Source of the DNA: an uncultured Coprococcus sp.
Lineage (GTDB): Bacteria > Bacillota > Clostridia > Lachnospirales > Lachnospiraceae
Length of the DNA: 11,022 bases
Direction: 5' to 3'
Assembly (NCBI GenBank): GCA_900557435.1
Contig: USSH01000055.1
Coordinates: 1 to 11,022, forward strand
Part shown: positions 3 to 11,022 of the stretch, piece after piece
How positions within the stretch are numbered: the first letter of the stretch is position 1
How the letters are laid out: each line of letters begins with the position of its first letter
Translations under genes and position numbers: made by a program
Notes under the pieces: model-generated
What the model was told of the DNA's origin: nothing
What the model saw: only the letters and a program-made list of their open reading frames with translations
The model's database searches: none

Positions 3-2309
3 TATTATGTGCATGGTAGTGTAACATCCAAACATGCGGAAAATAATGAGAACAAGACAAGCCCAACAAACGAATATGTAAATGTTGAAAGATTAGGAGA
101 TTCTGAGACAATTGTTGATCCGACACAGAAGGAATATTACGATGGCGAAAATGTGAAGAGTAAATATTCAGGATTTTACGTAAATGGATCACAGGTATCT
201 GTTATGGCAGATACGATTATCGTTCCGGGAACAATTGCGGTTATGAACAAGGGTTCTTTATCTGTATATGGTAAGGATGGTACACAAACTGCAGAATCTG
301 AAGTCTGGACGGATGATGTTGTTTTAGATGGATATAGTACAGTATCAGAAAATACGAATGCAACAACTGGCGAAGTGAAAAAAACATATCAGGGTTCTGA
401 TGCGATCTTCAAGGCAGATATGTATGTTAAAGATGATACCGAACTGAATGCTGCAGGTTCAACACTTCAGCTTACTGGTAGCTATTATGGCTATGGTGAT
501 AGTACGGAGAAAGATGACCGAAAGTTTACACCGGTTGTAAATGCTGAGAACTTCCAGGTTGAAGTTGCAGATGGATCTGGAAAAACTACAACAGAAAATA
601 GAGGGCATTATAACAGTAGTGCAATTATTGTAAATGGTGAACAGTCTACCTTAAATCTGGCACAGGCAAAGGATATTTTTCTTGCAGGACGTACTTATAT
701 TGAATTATCAAAGGATGTTAATACAGTATCGGGCGTTGTGAATGAGACAGAAACAGATAAGGATGGAAAACAAACAACAGTAGAAAAGAAAACTGTAACA
801 GATGTATATGCATACCATCCAACAGACTACAATCCAGAGATGCCATCTAGTTTAAGAACTGATGACAACAAGACCTCTCTTCGTGATTATAAGATGGGTG
901 AGAGTATTTCGTTCAAGAGTAATCAGGCAGCATATATTCCGATTACTAGCAAGGGAATACCAACATTAGCGAAAGATAAGGATGGAAAGTCGCTTGGCTA
1001 TTATCTTGCAGAGCTTCCACCAGCATTAAAGGGTAGTGAGCTCTTTGAAAAGTATTTCCCAGAAGCAATATTCGATGGAAAGGTTCCTTGTGTATTGCAG
1101 GAGGTATCAGGTAAGAAGTATTATTACTATGATTTCCAGACAGCATACAATCAGATGAAAGCAAATTATACACCAAAGACACTTTCTAAGGTGACAGGTA
1201 TGGATTATCTGGAATGGCAGAATACATACCCATCTCCACAGTATTTTGCAGCGGGCTTTATCAGTGATTACAGTGCAGAACTTGAGATGCATAGAAAGTA
1301 TGTTGCTGCAAAGAACAAGAAGGGCTTGCAGGATAGTGTAATTGCAGAGTATCTGGTAGATATTGGGGATTATGAAGATTTCGATGCGGGAGATATTATT
1401 TTACCGGATTCAGAGCTGAATGATAAGGTGAATATTTTCTCAAGTGGTGCGATTACATCAAAGACAGATACAGAGTTTAGTATTGTCAGAGCAGATGATG
1501 AAACAGCAATCAGCAAGCTTCTGACATCGGATGTTCTGGAAGATGTTAATTCAATGAATATACAGGATATCTTATGGAACAAGGATGGCGATTCTGATGG
1601 AACAGAAAAGAAGTTCTTATCAGCATATCAGTTATCTGATAAGATCCAGCTGGAATATGAATATATGAAGTGGAATCTCGGACATTACACAGGAACAGGA
1701 AACAGTGCGAATAATGAGAAGGAAATGGAATATATCAAAGATCTTGTAAATGATGAGAATTTTGGCGATGCAAGCATTACACCAATCAATAAATTCCTGA
1801 ATATGTCCAAGATTGAAGATGGTAATGAGGATATGAGACTTGTGCCAAACTTGACTGGAAATGCAGACGAACAGGATTCTAATAATATTTTGGATCTTGC
1901 ATCAAAATATTCTGTATGGGTAAGTGATAAGGATGTTGTTGTAAAAGCAAGAAGTACAGATAACGGCAAGGTAAGAGGTATTGTTATCACAAAGGGCAAT
2001 GTTTACTTTGATAATTCGGCAACCAATGGCGTAACCGATTTTGAGGGCGCAATTATTGCAGGTGGTAAAATCTATGTAAACGGAAATGTGAAGACGATTG
2101 CATCGAGTGCTGAGATTTGTAGAGCGGTATTACGTGAGTGTATATTGACAGGCAACGAGAAGACGAATTATGTATTATCATTATTCCGAGGATATAATCC
2201 AACGAGTCAGGATGATACAGATTCGGATGATGATGAAGTAAAGTCAATCAATGCGATTGATTATACAGATGTTGTAAGCTTTTCAAATTGGATGAAGAAT
2301 GTGGAATAG
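3..2309 (+). CDS. PilX-like type IV pilus-associated protein, 5'-truncated by the window edge
   Basis: The reading frame is open to the left edge, so the true start and any N-terminal membrane segment lie upstream; the GTG at position 9 is an internal valine codon. About 768 residues are visible. The clearest domain is near the C-terminus (nt 1977-2106): short beta strands with turns such as GIVITKGNVYF, GAIIAGGKIYV and NGNVKT, the parallel-helix pattern seen in PilX-like and bactofilin-like proteins of Firmicutes. Similar strand-turn pieces occur at the start (YYVHGSV, FYVNGSQV). The rest is soluble and acidic and matches nothing I recognise. The tail has an Asp-rich stretch (DDTDSDDDE, nt 2212-2238) followed by VVSFSNWMKN, resembling the C-terminal VSYENW-type ending of PilX-like proteins. 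It lies 9 bases upstream of two prepilin genes, which supports a pilus or pseudopilus role. Family assignment is inferred from pattern and context, not from a search. Confidence 0.62.
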   Translation, partial: YYVHGSVTSKHAENNENKTSPTNEYVNVERLGDSETIVDPTQKEYYDGENVKSKYSGFYVNGSQVSVMADTIIVPGTIAVMNKGSLSVYGKDGTQTAESEVWTDDVVLDGYSTVSENTNATTGEVKKTYQGSDAIFKADMYVKDDTELNAAGSTLQLTGSYYGYGDSTEKDDRKFTPVVNAENFQVEVADGSGKTTTENRGHYNSSAIIVNGEQSTLNLAQAKDIFLAGRTYIELSKDVNTVSGVVNETETDKDGKQTTVEKKTVTDVYAYHPTDYNPEMPSSLRTDDNKTSLRDYKMGESISFKSNQAAYIPITSKGIPTLAKDKDGKSLGYYLAELPPALKGSELFEKYFPEAIFDGKVPCVLQEVSGKKYYYYDFQTAYNQMKANYTPKTLSKVTGMDYLEWQNTYPSPQYFAAGFISDYSAELEMHRKYVAAKNKKGLQDSVIAEYLVDIGDYEDFDAGDIILPDSELNDKVNIFSSGAITSKTDTEFSIVRADDETAISKLLTSDVLEDVNSMNIQDILWNKDGDSDGTEKKFLSAYQLSDKIQLEYEYMKWNLGHYTGTGNSANNEKEMEYIKDLVNDENFGDASITPINKFLNMSKIEDGNEDMRLVPNLTGNADEQDSNNILDLASKYSVWVSDKDVVVKARSTDNGKVRGIVITKGNVYFDNSATNGVTDFEGAIIAGGKIYVNGNVKTIASSAEICRAVLRECILTGNEKTNYVLSLFRGYNPTSQDDTDSDDDEVKSINAIDYTDVVSFSNWMKNVE

Positions 2310-2315
2310 AGGTGG
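2309..2315 (+). promoter_or_regulatory. Ribosome binding site of the GspH/FimU-like prepilin gene
   Basis: GAGGTGG overlaps the last base of the preceding stop codon and lies at normal distance from the ATG at 2319. It favours this start over the in-frame ATG at 2337, which has no comparable site in front of it. The overlap also suggests coupled translation. Confidence 0.7.
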
Positions 2316-2318
2316 CCT

Positions 2319-2921
2319 ATGAATAAGAGAAGATTTATGAAGAAAAATGAAGGCTACTCATTGGTCGAAATGATTATAGTTATTGCAATTATTGCAGTAA
2401 TGAGTGGTGCAGCGATGGTCACAATTACGATTATCCACAATGCAAAAGCAAAGGAGGCTGCAAGCACATTTGAGGATGTGCTTGCAGAGACTCAGAGCAA
2501 TGCAAAAGGCAAGATGTGTGTGATTGATGGAACACAATATCCAGATTACCGTTTTGCAGTAGCTGTATTTAAGAACGGTTCTAAATATTATGTTCAGGAA
2601 GGCTATTACAAAGGAAATGGCGCTTCTTTGACAGATAAAAACAGCTATGATTTTGTAAACACGAAGGATCTTAGAAGTGGTAAGCCGGTTTCATTTTCAG
2701 CATATGTTGCTGTGAAATATAAGGCAAATGGTGCAACGGATGAGAGTGATATTGGTCTTCTGGATTCAGAAAGTGCGGGAAATCAACCAGTTTATATCAT
2801 CTATGATCGTCAGGGAATGTGTATAAATGGAAGTGGTGAGTTTAACTTCTATCGAAACAGCAAAAACACATTATTATCAACAGTGGTGCTTAATAAAAAT
2901 GGTAGCCACACATCGAATTAA
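2319..2921 (+). CDS. Type IV minor prepilin / pseudopilin, GspH/FimU-like
   Basis: This 200-residue protein begins with a class III prepilin signal: a short basic leader ending in Gly12, cleavage before Tyr13, then SLVE with the invariant Glu at mature position 5 (Glu17), and a hydrophobic helix to about residue 36 (MIIVIAIIAVMSGAAMV). A prepilin peptidase would cut and methylate it, and the helix would pack into a pilus or pseudopilus. After the helix, an amphipathic stretch (about 37-60) leads into a beta-rich head. The C-terminal pattern VYIIYDRQGMCINGSG followed by strands and a final NKNG resembles the GspH/FimT/FimU head, so a minor rather than major pilin is likely. The only two cysteines, Cys67 and Cys168, could form a disulfide. 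It sits between the PilX-like gene and a second prepilin. The prepilin call is firm; the subtype is inferred. Confidence 0.85.
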   Translation: MNKRRFMKKNEGYSLVEMIIVIAIIAVMSGAAMVTITIIHNAKAKEAASTFEDVLAETQSNAKGKMCVIDGTQYPDYRFAVAVFKNGSKYYVQEGYYKGNGASLTDKNSYDFVNTKDLRSGKPVSFSAYVAVKYKANGATDESDIGLLDSESAGNQPVYIIYDRQGMCINGSGEFNFYRNSKNTLLSTVVLNKNGSHTSN

Positions 2922-2928
2922 GGGGAGG
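2922..2928 (+). promoter_or_regulatory. Ribosome binding site that fixes the start of the GspJ/PilW-like gene
   Basis: GGGGAGG directly follows the preceding stop codon. It is 7 bases from the ATG at 2936 but only 1 base from the GTG at 2930, so ATG 2936 is the better start and the two codons before it are untranslated. Confidence 0.75.
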
Positions 2929-2935
2929 CGTGAAG

Positions 2936-3868
2936 ATGAAACACATGGAAAAAAAGAATAGTGGTTTCTCCTTGATCGAGTTGATAATCGCGATGGCGGT
3001 GCTTGCATTTCTGATGTTGGCAGTATCATCCTTTATGGGATCAAGTGTTATGCAGAACAAGAAAGTAAAAGTAGATGTGAAAATGCAGACGCAGTCGCAG
3101 GAAACCTACAGTTTATTTTCAGATGCAATTATGCAGGCTTCTGATATCATTATGGTGGGATATGAAGCGTCAGATGATTCGCTGATTGATTTTTCGAAAG
3201 ATGGAGAGAAGACAACAGCAACATTGACAAAGCATTTTTATGTGAAAGATAAAGATGCTGCACAGGCGTTAATTTCAGATCCGGGGAAATATGGAATTGA
3301 AGGTTCAGTATCAGAGACAGAAATTGTATATTTCAAGGATGTTGATAAGAACAAGAAAATCTATGTTAAATCACTTCGAATTGAAAGTTCAGTACCAATT
3401 GACATGAACCAGACAGAGGGAAAAGGTAATGCCAATATTGTTGCAGATCAAACATTGATGAATGATTTGACTGGAGAAGAAGAAAAGATTAGTTGTGAAG
3501 AAAAAACTGCAGAGGATGGAACAAAGAAGAAGGTATATAGTACGAATGATACTTTGGTATCCACTTTCTGCTTTGAAGAAAACAGTTTGTATTATGGAAG
3601 AAAATATGCATTTATGAGTGCATTGAACGATCCACTTGATATGAATGACAGCACTTCAAGACGTGAACATTTGTATAATAAATATTTCTCCTATAATACA
3701 TATGAATCAGCGGGAGTTGGAGATGCAATTTCCGGATGTGTAGCAACTATAAATGCAGATGATGGTACGATCGGAATAGATTTCTATTATCATCAGTCAA
3801 ATATGCAATATACAACGAATGGTCGTGTGAATACGAGAAATTCGTATGTATTAAAGCCAAGAAAGTAA
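2936..3868 (+). CDS. Type IV minor prepilin / pseudopilin, GspJ/PilW-like
   Basis: The protein has 310 residues from the chosen ATG at 2936; an in-frame GTG at 2930 would add two residues but is too close to the ribosome binding site. A 10-residue leader (MKHMEKKNSG) ends in the glycine required by prepilin peptidase, followed by FSLIE with Glu at mature position 5 and a hydrophobic helix to about residue 33 (LIIAMAVLAFLMLAVSSFM). The head is large for a pilin (about 275 residues) and starts with a Gln/Ser-rich helix (MQTQSQETYSLFSDAIMQAS), as in GspJ and PilW, the large minor pilins near the tip. A middle segment (about 150-200) is lysine/glutamate-rich and probably an exposed loop. The gene lies 14 bases after the GspH-like gene and 15 before the giant exported protein. 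The prepilin call is firm; GspJ/PilW is inferred from length, helix pattern and context. Confidence 0.82.
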   Translation: MKHMEKKNSGFSLIELIIAMAVLAFLMLAVSSFMGSSVMQNKKVKVDVKMQTQSQETYSLFSDAIMQASDIIMVGYEASDDSLIDFSKDGEKTTATLTKHFYVKDKDAAQALISDPGKYGIEGSVSETEIVYFKDVDKNKKIYVKSLRIESSVPIDMNQTEGKGNANIVADQTLMNDLTGEEEKISCEEKTAEDGTKKKVYSTNDTLVSTFCFEENSLYYGRKYAFMSALNDPLDMNDSTSRREHLYNKYFSYNTYESAGVGDAISGCVATINADDGTIGIDFYYHQSNMQYTTNGRVNTRNSYVLKPRK

Positions 3869-3883
3869 GGAGGAAAAAAGAAC

Positions 3884-6800
3884 ATGAAACGTAAAATGAA
3901 GATTACAATATCAGCATTAGCAGTTATGTTCGTTGCAGCGATTGCCGTTGCAATTGCTTCGTTCTCCTTTGCTGGTAATGGGGACAAGGATGACTTGTTA
4001 GAAGATAGCCAGATTTTGGCAGATGCGTCTGGTTCGGTTAGTGAGAAAACGATCATAGACTATATTATCGAAAATTCGTATTCTGTTGATCCACAAATAG
4101 ATCCGGTTTATCATATCGTGGAGGTTACTTCTTCGGGAGATGCTTCATCATTCAGCACATATGCAAACTCCGGTGCATTCAAAAATTATGTAGTGGATGG
4201 AAATAAGACAATAGAGCAGCTTATGGCTGAAGGAAAAGTTGATTTCCAGACTGTGAAAGCTACATTGAATGATAGTGATGGAGACGAGTTTACGAATGCT
4301 CTTGATTATATTGCAAAAGCAGATTTAATTTATGTAAGTAATGACGTAAAGAAAAAATATGCTGTAGAAAATGATATTTCAGAGAAGATGTTCGATGCTT
4401 TAAATAAGTATGCGATCACAGACTTTAAGCCATTGATTATTGATAATCCGAATGTAAGCACTGATACAGCAGATAGCAAGACTATGAAGCAGTTAGCTTC
4501 AGATGCGTTTGGACCAAATGAGAAGTATTATTATACTTTCCAATGGAAAGATGGCGTAACAGCAGAGCAGTATTTGGGACATTCCAATTCCTTGTATCTG
4601 GGTATTAATGGTGAAACTCAGAAGTCAAAGGTATGGTCGACGGTATATACCGAGGAACCAGTATATGATGGAGATACATTGACATCAAAACCATTTACTC
4701 TGGCTAGAGTGTTAACGATTAGTGAGAATGGTACAACATCTCGTACGGATCAGTTACTCCAGAAAGCTGATAATAAAAATCCAGTATATACAGGTGACTT
4801 ATATCAGATTACAGATAATAATGGTGTATCAGGTTCTGCTATATATCAGAAACCGGCAAGTGCGACGATTTATTCCTTGTCAACGGATTCGATTATGTAC
4901 ATTAATGGTTATAATAACCGTGTACAGACACGTCCAAATTATATTGAGAATGATGTCGTTACGTTAAGTGATGCTGCAAAGCTTGATTTTGATCAATACG
5001 ATATGATTATCCTTGAAGATAGTTGTTATGGTGAGACAATCACAAAGGATGTATATAAGAAGTTTGCGGCAGCAATGTATGGTAAAATCCATATTGTATA
5101 TGGCAGTAATATGGGAACAGGTACAGAGGCATCAACAGACAATGTTGATGATGCAACAAAGCGTGAATCAAACTATATGAAGCTGCTCATGTTGGTTGGT
5201 ACAACTGATTTCACTGCCAAATATGATAATATCATGATTACAACACATAGTGATTTTGACATTATCGTAACTTCGGAAAGTGTTGAGACAGGAAAAGTAA
5301 TTGCGGATTTAATCAATAAGTCAAAATATCGTGGAATAGGTGGTAACAGTTCTTCTTCATCTATGTTTACGGTATTGGAATTACAGCCATGTTATCCGAT
5401 TGATTTGGATTTGGCAGTCACATTGCGTGATAAGAAGGGATGGAGTAGTAGATTTAGTGAATATAAGGGTACTTATTATACCGATCCATCTAATATGTTG
5501 GATAATAAATCCAAAGAAGAGGTTAAGGATGGCCAGGAATATTATGCTTGGGAGTTAACAAAGGCGAAGATATCAGATGCATTGGGAATTCCTTATGACA
5601 AGATCAATTTGGTACATATGTCAACCGAGGAATTCGCAGGTGATAAAACTGAGATTCTTGGAACCTATGACTTGATTTATATTGGCGGTAATACTTCAGC
5701 GTTAAAGGATGCAAAAAATTATATGGAGTTGCAGAACCAGTATATTGGTCAGGAATGGGGAAATGGTCATTACTTCCCAGCATTAAACAAGAATTTATCT
5801 TTGGCTGAATGTTTGAAGCAATTACCGATATACACAATGTATTCCCATAATGGTGACTTGGTGAATGTTTCAGCTGCTAGAAATGCTACGATGGAAGGAC
5901 AGAAGGCTGTAGCCCAGGTCATCAAGGATGGTAATTATCAGAATACATTTACTTATCTGAATGGTAACGATATTACATATAATCGATACTGTGATTTAAA
6001 GGATTATATTGAAAAAGGCATGCCGGTCGTAGTTAGCAAGGCAGCATCAGATGCATATCGTGCAGTTAAAGATTTTGGCTATTCCCAGAATTCTTTAGAT
6101 CCGGATTGTAACATGTTTAAAGTACTTGATGCATGTCAAAATCAAATGGATGCTTCGATTGCAGAAAATAATGCATCGACAGTTGTTACTGGTTTTGATC
6201 AGTCAGATGTCACAGATATTGTATCCGATGGTACGCTGGGAGATACGCTGACAGGTTATGTTTCAGTATTTAATCAGAACAGTAAGAGCCAGTTGTTGCA
6301 GCTTTACAATAATGCAAATAAGAAGCCAAAGCTTGTTGTAAGAAGTATGCCAACCGAATACAATCGATTTGATAAGAGTTCTTTCCTAACAGAAAAAACT
6401 TTGAATTTCAAGTATGATGTTATTGGAACAACAAATTATACGGCAACGTTATATGTAGATGATAACGGAAACAGTAAATTTGATAGAAGTGAGAGCAGTA
6501 AAGAACGTATGGCAACAAGTAAGACAAATACATTGTCTTATGAATGTGCACCTTCCTTCTTTGGTTCCGTTTACTGGATGCTTGAGATTGTAGATAATGA
6601 TACAGGATTGTCAGTTAGTCAGACAGGATTTTCCTATATCAGAAACAGTGAAGATAAAAAACAGCAGGTTAGTATTCTTCAGATCATGCCACCTGATCCT
6701 GATGGTAAAAATGGTGGCCCGGGCGGTTTAGATGCCTTGTATTTCTGCCCGATATGTCAGAGATCAAAAGAAATTTTGGAGTATAATCCGAAGTACTTAG

Positions 6801-9409
6801 GAGGAGAAGCTACAAGATTTAGTGATGTTATTGAGTATAATGGCTATTATACAGATAGTAAGGATGTCAATGGATATCTTTCAAAAGATGCTTATATTGG
6901 TAGACACAAGCATGATTTTGGTGTTGCTTTTTATGATAGTCAGCGTACACTTGGACAATACACCGGTTCTGATGAATATTATGTAAATCTTGCAGATGAA
7001 GTTGAAGAGTACTATGACTTTGATATTGATATCATTCGTGCGGATGAATTAGCTGAATGGTCGGATGAAGTCCGTAATGCGTTCGAATATAAGTTTGACG
7101 GAAGTAACTTCTCATCAGAGAGGGTAACGGCAAGAGATGTTCGTTCGAAGCTTCTGGAAGCTTTGACAACACCAAGTGAAAGCTCTTCGAAATATGAAGA
7201 TTACCATGATATTTTGGTGGAGCAATATTTAAAGGTATTACTTGCTGCGCACGAAGGCACTGCGTTAGATAATGATAAGAATATCATAATTGCAAAGCTG
7301 AAAGAGGAGAATCCGAAGACAGATAATCAGACAGATGCAGAATATAACACTGCAATTGAGAAGAAATATTCGTCAATGTCATTGAATCAGAAGCTTACTA
7401 TTTTGGAGCCTAGTTTGACACAGGAATTAAAGAATGTGATTGAAGCTTTTGATTATAATGCGAGTGATGATGCTGCAAGAACAGAATTTGTTAACACGTA
7501 CAATGCATTATATATTTCACAGATGATGTGTGAATTTGCGGATGTAGCAAATGAATATAAGCTGAAAGATGATGAGCAGAAGAAACTTGTGGAAGAAAAT
7601 AAGAAAGAAGTTGAAGCTCTTCTTGATACAATTATTGCTAATTATGGCAGTAAGGGTAGTGTATTAGGTAATGCTGTTTCCTTAAAGGAGATACAGGATA
7701 TCAAGAGCAGCGGATATTATTTCGATATGTATGCGTTAACTGGTCATAAGGCTTTGTATGATGATATTACGAGTTTGACGGATGGCAAGGATATTAAAAA
7801 GATTATTTCTGATTACTATCATGCTTTGGATACAGAAATAGAGTATTCGGATGAGTATAAGCGTTACACTCGGTTTGCAAATGGAACTAATTGGATGGCA
7901 GCATGTTATAGTACAGTATTACTTGGACCATCAGACAGCTTTGGTAAACAGGATATTACATCCGAGCATGCATTGGATGATTTGGAGACTTACACAGTTG
8001 CAGGACATCAGATAGTTCTGTTCCATGATACATTATCTCCTTATCAGGATGCTGGTGCTGTACAGTTGACTGCTAGACTTCGTTCTTACTTTGGTATGGA
8101 TCGTTATCACATGCAGACAGCAACGGAGGCAGCTAGTACAGATAAGAAGAAGACATCAAATCCAGTTATTGGATCAAATGACTCATCGTATGTCAAATAT
8201 GTGTTGAAGAATGATGTTGCAACAGGCGAGAGTTATTCTTCAGAGAAGTACTTTATGACGAACCTTTCAAATAAGCCGAGAGATGATGAGAGTCGTTATG
8301 GAACATGGGGATCCGATTCTGGCTTAGGCGCATATAACTATTATCTGACAGACGTAGCTTATACAGATAACTTCAATGTCGGAGATGAATCTTCCAAGAT
8401 GAATTATGCAATTCCTTACAGATATGTACAGTTGAAGGGTTCTGATCAGTCCGTACATATGTCTGATGCAAAGTTTGATATGGCACAGTTCTATGGAAAG
8501 TATGGAACGAACAAAGCAAGTCAGAATAACGCAGGCTTGGTAACAACGTTCCCATTCACGATTCCATCGGAGATTAATATTGGACCAACGCATGGACAGG
8601 CATTTGCACTTGATTTAGAGGATGATGATATGACAGTTTGGTATTCCCTTGCTGGTGGAGACAGTGGTCCGACTACATCATCTATCTATGCCGCATCACC
8701 GAGAGATGCAATGGATAATTATTTCTTGTATTCATATAGAAATGTATTCTATTGTGGTGCAGGTCATACGAATATTACAGGTATTCACAAGATGAATAAT
8801 AATGAACGTTATTTGTTTATCAATATTATGTGTAATTCAGTTCGTTTGAGTATTGCCCAGCCGAAGATTTATGTATATGATTATGATAGTACTGAAACCA
8901 AAGAAAAGAATGACATTATTAAGAAAGATGGATCATCAGGTTATGTGATGAAGATTGCGGATGGAGAAAATTATCCAGAGTTTAACTTCAAGGTATTGGC
9001 AGATTCATCCAAAGATGTGAAATTAACAAATGTCAAGATATTCTATGATTTGGATTATTCAGATACCAATACGGATAATGCATATGTAAACAATAAGAAG
9101 CATATCTTGATTGCAGATTGGGGTTCAGATCAGGTTGTAAAGGGTCAGAATAAGCATGTATTCAGATTTGATGCATCTTTATGCAAGTTAGCAGGTGCAG
9201 ATAATAAGCAGATAAAAGAGATTTATGTTGATGAAAATGGAGTTGAGAGAGAAACAGCAGCTACAACATTGAAACTTTTACCTGAATATTTTGAGCCGTA
9301 CAATGGTGAATATACGTACATCGTAATTGAAGCAACTGATTCGGAAGGACAGAAGGTATATCAAAGAATTAAGATTAAAACAAAGACTCATTTGTTTGAT
9401 CTGACTTAA
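3884..9409 (+). CDS. Giant exported multidomain protein, DUF5057-like, in a minor-pilin operon
   Basis: This 1841-residue protein starts at an ATG 10 bases after AAGGAGG. Residues 1-30 are a Sec signal (basic MKRKMK, hydrophobic core, probable cut after SFA30). It has no prepilin motif, LPXTG or C-terminal membrane helix, so it is either released or held by the uncleaved N-terminus. Visible order: an N-terminal region with ADLIYVS (146-152) and YDMIILED (372-379); a segment beginning VLELQPC (497-503), continuing YDLIYIGGN (595-603), IYTMYSHNGD (649-658), NGNDIT (693-698) and GMPVVVS (712-718), which I associate with DUF5057 from memory; a beta domain with an EF-hand-like loop (859-870); a second unit from VSILQIMPP (about 929) with CPIC (955-958) and HKH (1008-1010); a helical Lys/Glu-rich insertion (about 1075-1260); strands AGHQIVLFHDTL (1373-1384) and GAGHTNITGIH (1625-1635) of glutamine-amidotransferase-like appearance; and a C-terminal Ig-like beta domain (about 1665-1841). 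Its biochemical function is unknown; an adhesin or pilus-dependent effector is inferred from context. Confidence 0.72.
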   Translation: MKRKMKITISALAVMFVAAIAVAIASFSFAGNGDKDDLLEDSQILADASGSVSEKTIIDYIIENSYSVDPQIDPVYHIVEVTSSGDASSFSTYANSGAFKNYVVDGNKTIEQLMAEGKVDFQTVKATLNDSDGDEFTNALDYIAKADLIYVSNDVKKKYAVENDISEKMFDALNKYAITDFKPLIIDNPNVSTDTADSKTMKQLASDAFGPNEKYYYTFQWKDGVTAEQYLGHSNSLYLGINGETQKSKVWSTVYTEEPVYDGDTLTSKPFTLARVLTISENGTTSRTDQLLQKADNKNPVYTGDLYQITDNNGVSGSAIYQKPASATIYSLSTDSIMYINGYNNRVQTRPNYIENDVVTLSDAAKLDFDQYDMIILEDSCYGETITKDVYKKFAAAMYGKIHIVYGSNMGTGTEASTDNVDDATKRESNYMKLLMLVGTTDFTAKYDNIMITTHSDFDIIVTSESVETGKVIADLINKSKYRGIGGNSSSSSMFTVLELQPCYPIDLDLAVTLRDKKGWSSRFSEYKGTYYTDPSNMLDNKSKEEVKDGQEYYAWELTKAKISDALGIPYDKINLVHMSTEEFAGDKTEILGTYDLIYIGGNTSALKDAKNYMELQNQYIGQEWGNGHYFPALNKNLSLAECLKQLPIYTMYSHNGDLVNVSAARNATMEGQKAVAQVIKDGNYQNTFTYLNGNDITYNRYCDLKDYIEKGMPVVVSKAASDAYRAVKDFGYSQNSLDPDCNMFKVLDACQNQMDASIAENNASTVVTGFDQSDVTDIVSDGTLGDTLTGYVSVFNQNSKSQLLQLYNNANKKPKLVVRSMPTEYNRFDKSSFLTEKTLNFKYDVIGTTNYTATLYVDDNGNSKFDRSESSKERMATSKTNTLSYECAPSFFGSVYWMLEIVDNDTGLSVSQTGFSYIRNSEDKKQQVSILQIMPPDPDGKNGGPGGLDALYFCPICQRSKEILEYNPKYLGGEATRFSDVIEYNGYYTDSKDVNGYLSKDAYIGRHKHDFGVAFYDSQRTLGQYTGSDEYYVNLADEVEEYYDFDIDIIRADELAEWSDEVRNAFEYKFDGSNFSSERVTARDVRSKLLEALTTPSESSSKYEDYHDILVEQYLKVLLAAHEGTALDNDKNIIIAKLKEENPKTDNQTDAEYNTAIEKKYSSMSLNQKLTILEPSLTQELKNVIEAFDYNASDDAARTEFVNTYNALYISQMMCEFADVANEYKLKDDEQKKLVEENKKEVEALLDTIIANYGSKGSVLGNAVSLKEIQDIKSSGYYFDMYALTGHKALYDDITSLTDGKDIKKIISDYYHALDTEIEYSDEYKRYTRFANGTNWMAACYSTVLLGPSDSFGKQDITSEHALDDLETYTVAGHQIVLFHDTLSPYQDAGAVQLTARLRSYFGMDRYHMQTATEAASTDKKKTSNPVIGSNDSSYVKYVLKNDVATGESYSSEKYFMTNLSNKPRDDESRYGTWGSDSGLGAYNYYLTDVAYTDNFNVGDESSKMNYAIPYRYVQLKGSDQSVHMSDAKFDMAQFYGKYGTNKASQNNAGLVTTFPFTIPSEINIGPTHGQAFALDLEDDDMTVWYSLAGGDSGPTTSSIYAASPRDAMDNYFLYSYRNVFYCGAGHTNITGIHKMNNNERYLFINIMCNSVRLSIAQPKIYVYDYDSTETKEKNDIIKKDGSSGYVMKIADGENYPEFNFKVLADSSKDVKLTNVKIFYDLDYSDTNTDNAYVNNKKHILIADWGSDQVVKGQNKHVFRFDASLCKLAGADNKQIKEIYVDENGVERETAATTLKLLPEYFEPYNGEYTYIVIEATDSEGQKVYQRIKIKTKTHLFDLT

Positions 9410-9420
9410 GATTTATGAGT

Positions 9421-9464
9421 AAAATCCATGGTGATACCGAAAATGGTATCCCATGGATTTTTTT
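9421..9464 (+). terminator. Rho-independent terminator of the pilin operon
   Basis: The arms AAAATCCATGG-T-GATACC (9421-9438) and GGTATC-CCATGGATTTT (9445-9461) pair over 17 base pairs with one bulged T, around a six-base loop GAAAAT. The 3' arm runs into seven T residues (9458-9464). It starts 12 bases after the stop codon of the giant gene, so it ends that transcript. The A-rich foot on the left could also serve a convergent transcript, but no minus-strand gene is seen. Confidence 0.92.
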
Positions 9465-9473
9465 GTCATTTAA

Positions 9474-9502
9474 TTGACATTTATATTGGGAACAGATATT
9501 AT
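9474..9502 (+). promoter_or_regulatory. Sigma-A type promoter P1 of the leucine-rich repeat gene
   Basis: A perfect -35 box TTGACA (9474-9479), a 17-base spacer and a near-perfect -10 box TATTAT (9497-9502) stand just after the terminator. Transcription would begin near 9509 and give a leader of about 56 bases before the ATG at 9565. Confidence 0.8.
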
Positions 9503-9541: not shown

Positions 9542-9550
9542 AAGTAATGG

Positions 9551-9559
9551 AAAGGGGAG
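9551..9559 (+). promoter_or_regulatory. Ribosome binding site of the leucine-rich repeat gene
   Basis: AAAGGGGAG is a good Shine-Dalgarno match 5 bases before the ATG at 9565. The codons after that ATG encode a proper signal peptide, which supports the start. Confidence 0.7.
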
Positions 9560-9564
9560 AGATT

Positions 9565-11022
9565 ATGCATAAACGCAAAATCAATCGTGCGCTTGTTGTT
9601 GCGTTGAGTGTTGCAATGGCTTCAGGGAATGTAACACCAACGATTTCTTATGCAGCAGAGTCCGCACAGGTTCAGGAGATGGTTGAGCAGAAAGAGGATG
9701 TTTCTGATGAGCCGCAGGAAAAAGAGAAGACGGTAGTTAAGGATACGCATACTTTTGAATATGTTTCAGAAGATGGTACTTATTCTTTAAAGTATCAGTT
9801 CCACACTTCGGGGGATGATGTATATGCGATTATTACGGGCTATGGATTAAATAGAGAGGGAAGGAATATTGTAATTCCGGAGAAAGTAAGTGCACCTGCT
9901 GAAGATAGCCAATATGTATATACTGATTCTGACAAATATCAGGATATTACTGTAAAGATTATTTTCCAAAACGCTTTTGCAGGATCAGATTGTCCGACGT
10001 CAGTCGTGATTCCAGCATGTGTAGAATCCATTGGAACAAATGCATTTACAAATGGTAGTTCTAGTAAGGACAGTTTATTGGAATCTGTAACGATTGCGGA
10101 GAAATCGCAATTAAAGGATATTGGTGAGTTTGCATTTCAGAATCAAGTAAAATTAAGTAGTAGCCTTATTATTCCAGCAGGAGTAAAGAAGATTGGTCAG
10201 CAAGCCTTTTATGGATGTAAAGGACTGACGGATATCCAATTTCTTGGTGGTGAGACAATTGAGAAAGAAGCATTTTCGGGATGTACGAATGTTAAAGGCG
10301 GTTTGAATCTCCCAGATAGTGTGATAACGGTTGGAGACAGTGCGTTTGCAAGTTATGGAAATGCAGTAAAAGATGCGAAGGATTTTGGAGCACTTGTCTT
10401 GTCTGACAAACTGGAGTCCATTGGTAAGAGTGCGTTTAGCGGAGCAAAATTTGTGGGGAATTTAACTATCCCGAAAACTGTAAAAGATATTGGAAGTTCA
10501 GCTTTTTCGTCAGCCTTTTCGAATAAAGATACAAAAGGAACATTAACATTCGAGGTTGATGAGAATAATTCCAGCAGTTTGACAGAGATACCAGCGTCTG
10601 CATTTAATAGTTGTATTGGGTTTAATGGAGATTTGAAAATACCTGATTCTATTGTATCAGTTGGTGAAAGAGCATTTGGTGGATGCAATTGCTTAGATGG
10701 AAAGATAACATTATCGAAGACATTAACAACTATTGGCAATTCAGCTTTTGCTATTTGTAAGAAATTGACTGGAGATTTGACAATTCCAGATTCGGTTACA
10801 AAAATTGGTACGAATGCATTTTCTGGTTGTAGTGCATTGAATGGAAAGCTTACAATTAGTGCCAATATAACAAAAATTGAGAATTCAACATTTGAAAATT
10901 GTACTAATTTAAGAGGTGATTTATCAGTACCAGAAGGTGTAACTGAGATTGGTACCAGTGCATTTGCTGGATGTGAATCGATGAATGGGACTTTGACATT
11001 ACCAGAAACCGTTACAAAGATT
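9565..11022 (+). CDS. Secreted BspA-like leucine-rich repeat surface protein, 3'-truncated by the window edge
   Basis: From ATG 9565 the frame is open through the last base, giving 486 residues without a stop. Residues 1-31 form a Sec signal peptide (MHKRKINRALVVALSVAMAS, probable cut after SYAA before Glu). A Glu/Lys-rich linker (about 31-60) follows, then a short beta segment (about 62-135). From about residue 156 come repeats with the LRR_5/BspA signature: IGxxAFxGCxxL, a short linker, LxIPxxVxx. Thirteen units are visible and more should follow. Such proteins in gut Firmicutes and Bacteroides are exported and usually bind host or microbial surfaces, often ending in a cell-wall anchor, which here would lie beyond the window. 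The gene has its own promoters and is separated from the pilin operon by a terminator, so it is a neighbour rather than a member. The family is clear; ligand and anchoring cannot be told. Confidence 0.88.
   Translation, partial: MHKRKINRALVVALSVAMASGNVTPTISYAAESAQVQEMVEQKEDVSDEPQEKEKTVVKDTHTFEYVSEDGTYSLKYQFHTSGDDVYAIITGYGLNREGRNIVIPEKVSAPAEDSQYVYTDSDKYQDITVKIIFQNAFAGSDCPTSVVIPACVESIGTNAFTNGSSSKDSLLESVTIAEKSQLKDIGEFAFQNQVKLSSSLIIPAGVKKIGQQAFYGCKGLTDIQFLGGETIEKEAFSGCTNVKGGLNLPDSVITVGDSAFASYGNAVKDAKDFGALVLSDKLESIGKSAFSGAKFVGNLTIPKTVKDIGSSAFSSAFSNKDTKGTLTFEVDENNSSSLTEIPASAFNSCIGFNGDLKIPDSIVSVGERAFGGCNCLDGKITLSKTLTTIGNSAFAICKKLTGDLTIPDSVTKIGTNAFSGCSALNGKLTISANITKIENSTFENCTNLRGDLSVPEGVTEIGTSAFAGCESMNGTLTLPETVTKI
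10030..11022 (+). repeat. Tandem leucine-rich repeat units, 72-base period in the 3' part
   Basis: Repeat units (counted from the IG/VG before AF) begin at 10030, 10120, 10192, 10258, 10330, 10420, 10489, 10588, 10660, 10732, 10804, 10876, 10948 and 11020. The first seven intervals vary (90, 72, 66, 72, 90, 69, 99 bases); from 10588 on the interval is exactly 72 bases (24 residues) six times in succession. Units such as those at 10804 and 10948 share long stretches of the same codons, as expected after duplication by recombination. The array runs off the right edge. Confidence 0.88.

Follow-up and report, generated by a model that had tools for sequence, protein, structure and literature searches.

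In many gut Lachnospiraceae, the last gene of a type IV pilus operon seems to encode a giant exported protein. In our assessment this giant is probably a separate tip protein, held in the apex pilin by its C-terminal tail and having a role like that of PilY1 without being a PilY1. The window (the whole stretch of DNA that was analysed, 11,022 nucleotides) carries the 3' end of such an operon at positions 3–9409 (Table 1). Two observations that go beyond the first-pass annotation of this DNA, a conserved tail of the giant and a PilX-like pilin devoid of Glu5, strengthen the reading of the giant as a protein in the place of PilY1.

Table 1. Features of the window. Residue numbers are those of the protein encoded by ORF 4.
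Feature	Positions	Strand	Description
ORF 1	3..2309	+	768 codons, open at 5' edge; PilX-like minor pilin, 5' truncated
ORF 2	2319..2921	+	200 aa; GspH/FimU-like prepilin, motif KNEG/YSLVE; N_methyl E 2.9e-7
ORF 3	2930..3868	+	312 aa, GTG start; GspJ/PilW-like prepilin (weak label), motif KNSG/FSLIE; N_methyl E 2.6e-8
ORF 4	3884..9409	+	Giant exported protein, 1841 aa; DUF5057 (PF16480) E 8.4e-17
N-terminal signal	3884..3973	+	Residues 1-30; basic start and hydrophobic helix, no class III prepilin signal
N-terminal alpha/beta region	4049..5953	+	About residues 56-690; AF2 pLDDT 82.5; most length-variable part
First DUF5057 stretch	5966..6697	+	Residues 695-938 (Pfam)
Fn3/Ig-like domain	6332..6649	+	Residues 817-922
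EF-hand-like loop	6458..6481	+	D859-x-N861-x-N863-S-x-F866; D859 in 55/55 giants
ThuA/class-I-glutamine-amidotransferase-like domain	6644..8857	+	Residues 921-1658; conserved H1381, D1382, H1628, E1641
Helical insertion within ThuA-like domain	7184..7783	+	About residues 1101-1300; occupancy 0.10-0.12 among 55 aligned giants
C-terminal beta-rich (Ig-like) region	8858..9382	+	Residues 1659-1833
Conserved tail	9392..9406	+	Residues 1837-1841, LFDLT-COOH; proposed docking strand
Terminator-like hairpin and T run	9421..9461	+	Directly 3' of giant; -26.6 kcal/mol, z -6.98, 0/200 shuffles as good
Promoter-like site	9474..9502	+	TTGACA-17-TATTAT, 5' of LRR/BspA gene; 3 such sites found vs 1.7 expected by chance
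LRR/BspA gene	9547..11022		Next gene after giant; BspA-type LRR_5 surface protein (Pfam)

The operon in the window

The four ORFs lie on the + strand with intergenic gaps of 9, 8 and 15 bases, and Shine-Dalgarno-like sequences are located 5' of the starts of ORFs 2, 3 and 4. ORFs 2 and 3 match both N_methyl (Pfam) and the general prepilin domain TIGR02532 (NCBIfam) over cut-off, and both have the cleavage motif with Glu5. The giant scores 62.1 bits against DUF5057, for which the curated cut-off is 27.9. The first-pass annotation had described a minor-pilin operon that closes with a 1841-residue exported protein of DUF5057-like features, and the ORFs, the gaps and the N_methyl and DUF5057 matches confirm this description. 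The prepilin nature of ORFs 2 and 3 stands, and their scores for GspH and GspJ fall below the family cut-offs. The best named NCBIfam match of ORF 2 is GspH, at 26.7 bits versus a cut-off of 80. For ORF 3 the named NCBIfam matches are all below cut-off, with PRK10557, ComGE and ComGF ahead of GspJ (14.5 versus 64.85 bits); with several such names, and GspJ not the first of them, "GspJ/PilW-like" is weak as a name. The named pilin-family matches of the two ORFs (GspH, GspJ and others) rest on the N-terminus. ORF 1 gave no Pfam or NCBIfam name over cut-off and is called PilX-like after its full-length relatives, its own N-terminus being outside the window.

Given the hairpin downstream of the giant, which is absent from the list of a simple terminator scan, and the promoter-like site ahead of the LRR gene, the transcription unit most likely closes with the giant. 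The LRR/BspA gene looks separate from the pilus operon. The ORFs that follow the giant in loci L001–L007 start unlike this LRR gene.

The complete operon in relatives

The close-relative set comprised eight loci, the records of which are all Lachnospiraceae, Eubacterium or Clostridium sp. (L001 is from the culturable commensal Eubacterium sp. MSJ-21); one of them (L008) starts inside the giant. The gene order in all seven that reach far enough upstream is prepilin peptidase, PilM-N, PilO-like, prepilin, PilX-like, GspH-like, GspJ-like and giant. Pfam confirmed the prepilin peptidase (A24) in each of these seven, placed PilM_2 and PilN in one chain in L001, and in the upstream part of L006 recognised T2SSF (PilC) and an extra N_methyl pilin. 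Among the proteins scanned, the PilO-like and PilX-like ones had nothing over cut-off, the former showing below-cut-off T2SSM/PilO matches alone. Type IVa machine genes are thus present in relatives, outside the window: PilM_2, PilN, the A24 peptidase and T2SSF, and in L127 two T2SSE ATPases with T2SSF. In L097 a second PilM-N gene starts a few kilobases past the giant, and two pilus operons may adjoin there.

In 13 loci (L050, L051, L052, L056, L058, L061, L062, L065, L067, L075, L076, L083 and L091) the giant is preceded by a GspJ-like pilin that is itself large (676–1145 aa). Three of these large pilins were scanned (L050, L062 and L076), and in them Pfam names the N-terminus only over cut-off.

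Spread of the giant and its linkage to pilin genes

A profile search found PF16480 in 54 of 250 Lachnospiraceae genomes and in 0 of 14 controls, and the surroundings of the DUF5057 genes were inspected in all 54. A giant-HMM score of at least 80 gave 61 giant ORFs, from these genomes and others. At least two pilin genes were present among the four upstream ORFs for 55 of the 61, and none for six rows. Four of the six begin at a contig edge or close to one. Two of these (L055, L072) start at the edge itself. The sole upstream ORF of L066 is cut and resembles L065's large GspJ-like pilin; L070 has a cut upstream ORF, which matched no pilin. The last two rows, L071 and L127, are one gene. It encodes a giant's C-terminal part of 652 residues and shares 4 bases with a T2SSF (PilC) gene. 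In L127 (13879–19838) T2SSF is preceded by two T2SSE ATPases, one the size of PilB and one the size of PilT, and followed by the giant's C-terminal third, which looks like a deletion within a pilus operon or an assembly fault. In genome G249 a pilin operon on another contig closes with the giant's first 308 codons at the contig end. In G108 the pilin operon closes with an unrecognised 600-codon ORF running off the contig, and a giant begins at the edge of another contig.

A class-wide sample had DUF5057 in 9 of 391 genomes, 8 over cut-off; three were already known. The five new class-level loci over cut-off all belong to PilM-N/PilO/pilin clusters; L142, which scored below cut-off, is outside such a cluster. 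Full-length DUF5057 giants regularly apart from pilin genes were looked for in the surveyed genomes and were not found. Proteins that match the DUF5057 end only (L109–L113, 1049–1209 aa) are encoded away from pilus operons. Three of these loci (L109, L111, L113) have another protein next, its length ranging from 1371 to at least 2240 residues. The placement like that of PilY1, which had been proposed for the window, is well supported by the seven full loci and by the 55 giant ORFs, and this survey of DUF5057 and pilin gene order extends it to a general arrangement.

Domains and predicted fold of the giant

The DUF5057 core of the giant is predicted to have a ThuA-like fold, with a structural match across the domain (4jqs), relative to which the giant's core has large insertions. 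A PF06283 sequence match was seen in just 1 of 23 giants (E 0.042). The EF-hand-like loop has the sequence of a candidate calcium site. Pfam at E<=1 gave the giant no match to the PilY1 family (PF05567), to N_methyl or to a known adhesin domain. The AF2 models contained, as judged by secondary structure, no run of propeller blades, and had alpha/beta and Ig-like domains instead. These results bear out the earlier remark that the giant lacks a PilY1-type propeller, and both Pfam and the predicted fold agree with the idea that a protein unrelated to PilY1 stands in its place. None of 299 genomes from the phylum had PF05567, yet neither had any of the 14 controls, so that this search says nothing by itself. 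Residues 955, 958, 1008 and 1010 (C-x2-C, H-x-H) are invariant in 68 aligned close relatives and absent from most of the 55 distant giants; judging from the residues, they are possibly a zinc site of the window giant's clade.

A strong N-terminal hydrophobic stretch is present in 55 of 55 giants, its sequence well conserved among close relatives. The same 55 include three with a lipobox-like motif, none with LPxTG, none with a C-terminal membrane helix and one (L083) with an internal hydrophobic stretch. Ahead of D696 the giants have 129–1482 residues.

Pilus operons without DUF5057

For comparison, 19 PilM-N operons that lack a DUF5057 match were considered. Five of them finish with another large exported protein: L100 (935 aa), L101 (903 aa), L102 (at least 822 aa), L119 (802 aa) and L122 (1024 aa), and the end proteins of L102 and L119 match the giant HMM. 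No giant was recognised in the other 14, of which L125 is truncated where its contig stops and L121, L124 and L126 differ in gene content; the pilus, then, can do without the giant. Very large prepilin-like proteins occur in three of these 14: L104:4226-11650 (2475 aa), L106:5073-9260 (1396 aa) and L126:14940-20000 (at least 1686 aa). Their N_methyl matches are below cut-off, and GLUG motif matches are found in those of L104 and L126. They are possibly modular pilins, and giant-less pilus systems perhaps carry a grafted module instead. Two ORFs past the pilins, L108:1146-6242 encodes a 1699-aa protein with an LPETG-type sorting signal at its end, possibly a sortase-anchored protein in the giant's place.

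The N-terminal stretch and the operons without a giant bear, in opposite directions, on the reading of the giant as a biogenesis or cell-wall factor. Such a factor would retain an uncleaved N-terminal helix and help the filament through the peptidoglycan, while its tail keeps the minor pilins placed. The hydrophobic stretch of all 55 giants, conserved in close relatives, and the lack of another anchor seen in the giants agree with it. However, the N-terminal part is the most length-variable of the giant, unlike a machine part, and the 14 operons do without one. We regard this reading as unlikely.

A conserved C-terminal tail

The giants end in a conserved tail, approximately L-F-x-L-D/N/T, which is new here. 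The loose form of this pattern, composed after the ends had been seen, fits 48 of 51 complete giants versus 10 of 786 other ORFs (complete, at least 150 aa); these ten include the proteins that close the operons of L101 and L122. With a narrower pattern, [LIMV][FYLM]xL[DNTE], the counts are 38 of the 51 versus 3 of the 786, and with the strict LF[DEN]L[DNTE] 20 versus 1, the latter being the end protein of L122. Leucine is penultimate in 49 of the 51. The window giant has 157 homologues; among the 120 listed, the loose pattern describes 116 and the strict one 103, LFNLT or LFDLT being commonest, and one of the four that miss the loose pattern is named partial in its source. The last residues are conserved while the rest has drifted, and various leucine codons are used at each conserved leucine, so the conservation acts on the protein. 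In the model (pLDDT 89) the tail is beyond the last strand, and the sole stretch below pLDDT 50 is residues 1838–1841; by this prediction the tail might behave as a docking peptide without its partner. Of two sequences compared with the tail, LQNVYELP is alike and SKVLIYAP hardly. The tail fades outside the main clade: among the five class-level loci it is full in L137 only, and L138, L139 and L141 do not fit. L140 has tandem large exported proteins (1234 and 1942 aa) in one pilus cluster, both with a K-L-x-S-L-D end.

A conserved tail could also serve as a targeting signal, were the giant a substrate that is pushed out and released by a pilus or pseudopilus. TcpF is such a substrate of the toxin-coregulated pilus. 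It is named in passages of PMC10191384. The operon position would fit a substrate, and the ThuA-like core, with its conserved His, Asp and Glu, could be an enzyme. Against this, a Sec-exported protein leaves a one-membrane cell without a pilus, the relatives have the type IV pilus set PilM, PilN, T2SSF and peptidase, and L127 has a PilB-type ATPase together with a second T2SSE ATPase of PilT size. A released substrate is, on balance, quite unlikely. That the giant is merely a co-transcribed ThuA-like surface enzyme acting on sugars, physically unconnected to the pilus, would accord with the fold and the conserved H-D/H/E set, but it leaves unexplained both the position directly behind the minor pilins, which hardly varies, and the conserved tail, and is very improbable.

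The PilX-like pilin

The proposed partner of the tail is the PilX-like pilin. The window copy has 66% identity over 791 aa to that of L001 (5225–8446). In giant-bearing loci, 54 complete-looking relatives measure 566–1079 aa, all but one at least 703. Glu5 is present in 0 of 47 PilX-like N-termini (the window copy is without its N-terminus), and any acidic residue within the first 20 is seen in three. All 47 have Gly at the cleavage-like site, and an F-Y-x-x-E motif has F, Y and E each in at least 90% of the 47. Among ORFs that HMMs built in this analysis labelled as other pilins, with major pilins included, the Glu5 motif is retained in 69 of 72, 99 of 100 and 72 of 75. PilX_N (PF14341) is the family matched by most members, weakly but consistently with the label, with 14 of 47 at E<=1 and a best E of 1.2e-4; the full-length proteins of L001 and L006 had no PilX_N match at E<=0.1. 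In the Streptococcus sanguinis pilus model, as passages of PMC10628169 describe it, the sole pilin without Glu5 starts the filament at the apex. By analogy, the missing Glu5 may be the mark of an apex pilin in the PilX-like proteins.

Discussion

We propose that the window encodes a module for the tip of a type IV pilus in a Gram-positive host. The operon's minor pilins (the PilV-placed prepilin, the PilX-like pilin without Glu5, the GspH-like and the GspJ-like) would prime the filament, with the PilX-like pilin at the apex. The giant would be exported via its N-terminal signal and fold outside, whereupon its last residues would add a strand to the PilX-like pilin and hold it on the apex. It would then be carried out at the tip, its variable N-terminal alpha/beta domains leading, as a stand-alone effector for binding to a surface or a glycan. 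In published models PilY1 docks on PilX via a C-terminal strand, and we take the strand addition suggested here from that analogy. The location at the tip follows from the same reasoning and is to be understood as presumptive. For a tip protein, adhesion would be the likeliest task, and the ThuA-like core possibly binds or cuts sugar. To the stronger statement, that the Lachnospiraceae invented a second, non-homologous PilY1 in the form of a ThuA-like giant plugged by its tail into an apex pilin without Glu5, we give even chances.

Among known systems the giant is near to PilY1/PilC1 of Gram-negative type IVa pili (PF05567). Both are large exported non-pilins encoded with minor pilins, both have a variable N-terminal part, and for both the C-terminal end is proposed to dock on a PilX-type pilin. 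A PilX-type neighbour devoid of Glu5 and a conserved, free C-terminus are likewise common to the two. The giant differs in having no match to that family and no propeller, in its alpha/beta, Ig/Fn3-like and ThuA-like domains, and in its one-membrane host. PilY1 needs a calcium site for function, whereas the candidate D859 loop of the giant is in another kind of domain. Passages of PMC10191384 and PMC6916266 present PilC/PilY1 as the tip effector in diderms, and pilins with grafted modules in the monoderm S. sanguinis. The modular pilins PilB and PilC of S. sanguinis resemble the proposed tip giant in that they equip the type IV pilus tip of a monoderm with large functional modules; in them a pilin carries the grafted module, whereas the Lachnospiraceae giant is a separate exported protein. 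The large GspJ-like pilin and the giant occur together in 13 loci. Clusters for type IV pili in Gram-positive bacteria are catalogued by Imam et al. 2011 (PMC3244431), in a main text without the term PilY1. A literature search for "DUF5057" and "PF16480" found no paper. Pfam gives no function for DUF5057, and the full-length proteins are tied here to type IV pilus operons.

If the proposal is true, DUF5057 would acquire a function. If the stronger statement of a second PilY1 is true, the joint of a tail into an apex pilin would be a general socket of type IV pili, into which unrelated effectors have been fitted in one- and two-membrane bacteria. The short tail makes the docking hypothesis directly testable. 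A separate tip protein in a widespread gut family would alter the reviewed picture of diderm and monoderm pili and make the giant a candidate for the grip of these commensals on fibre, mucus or other cells.
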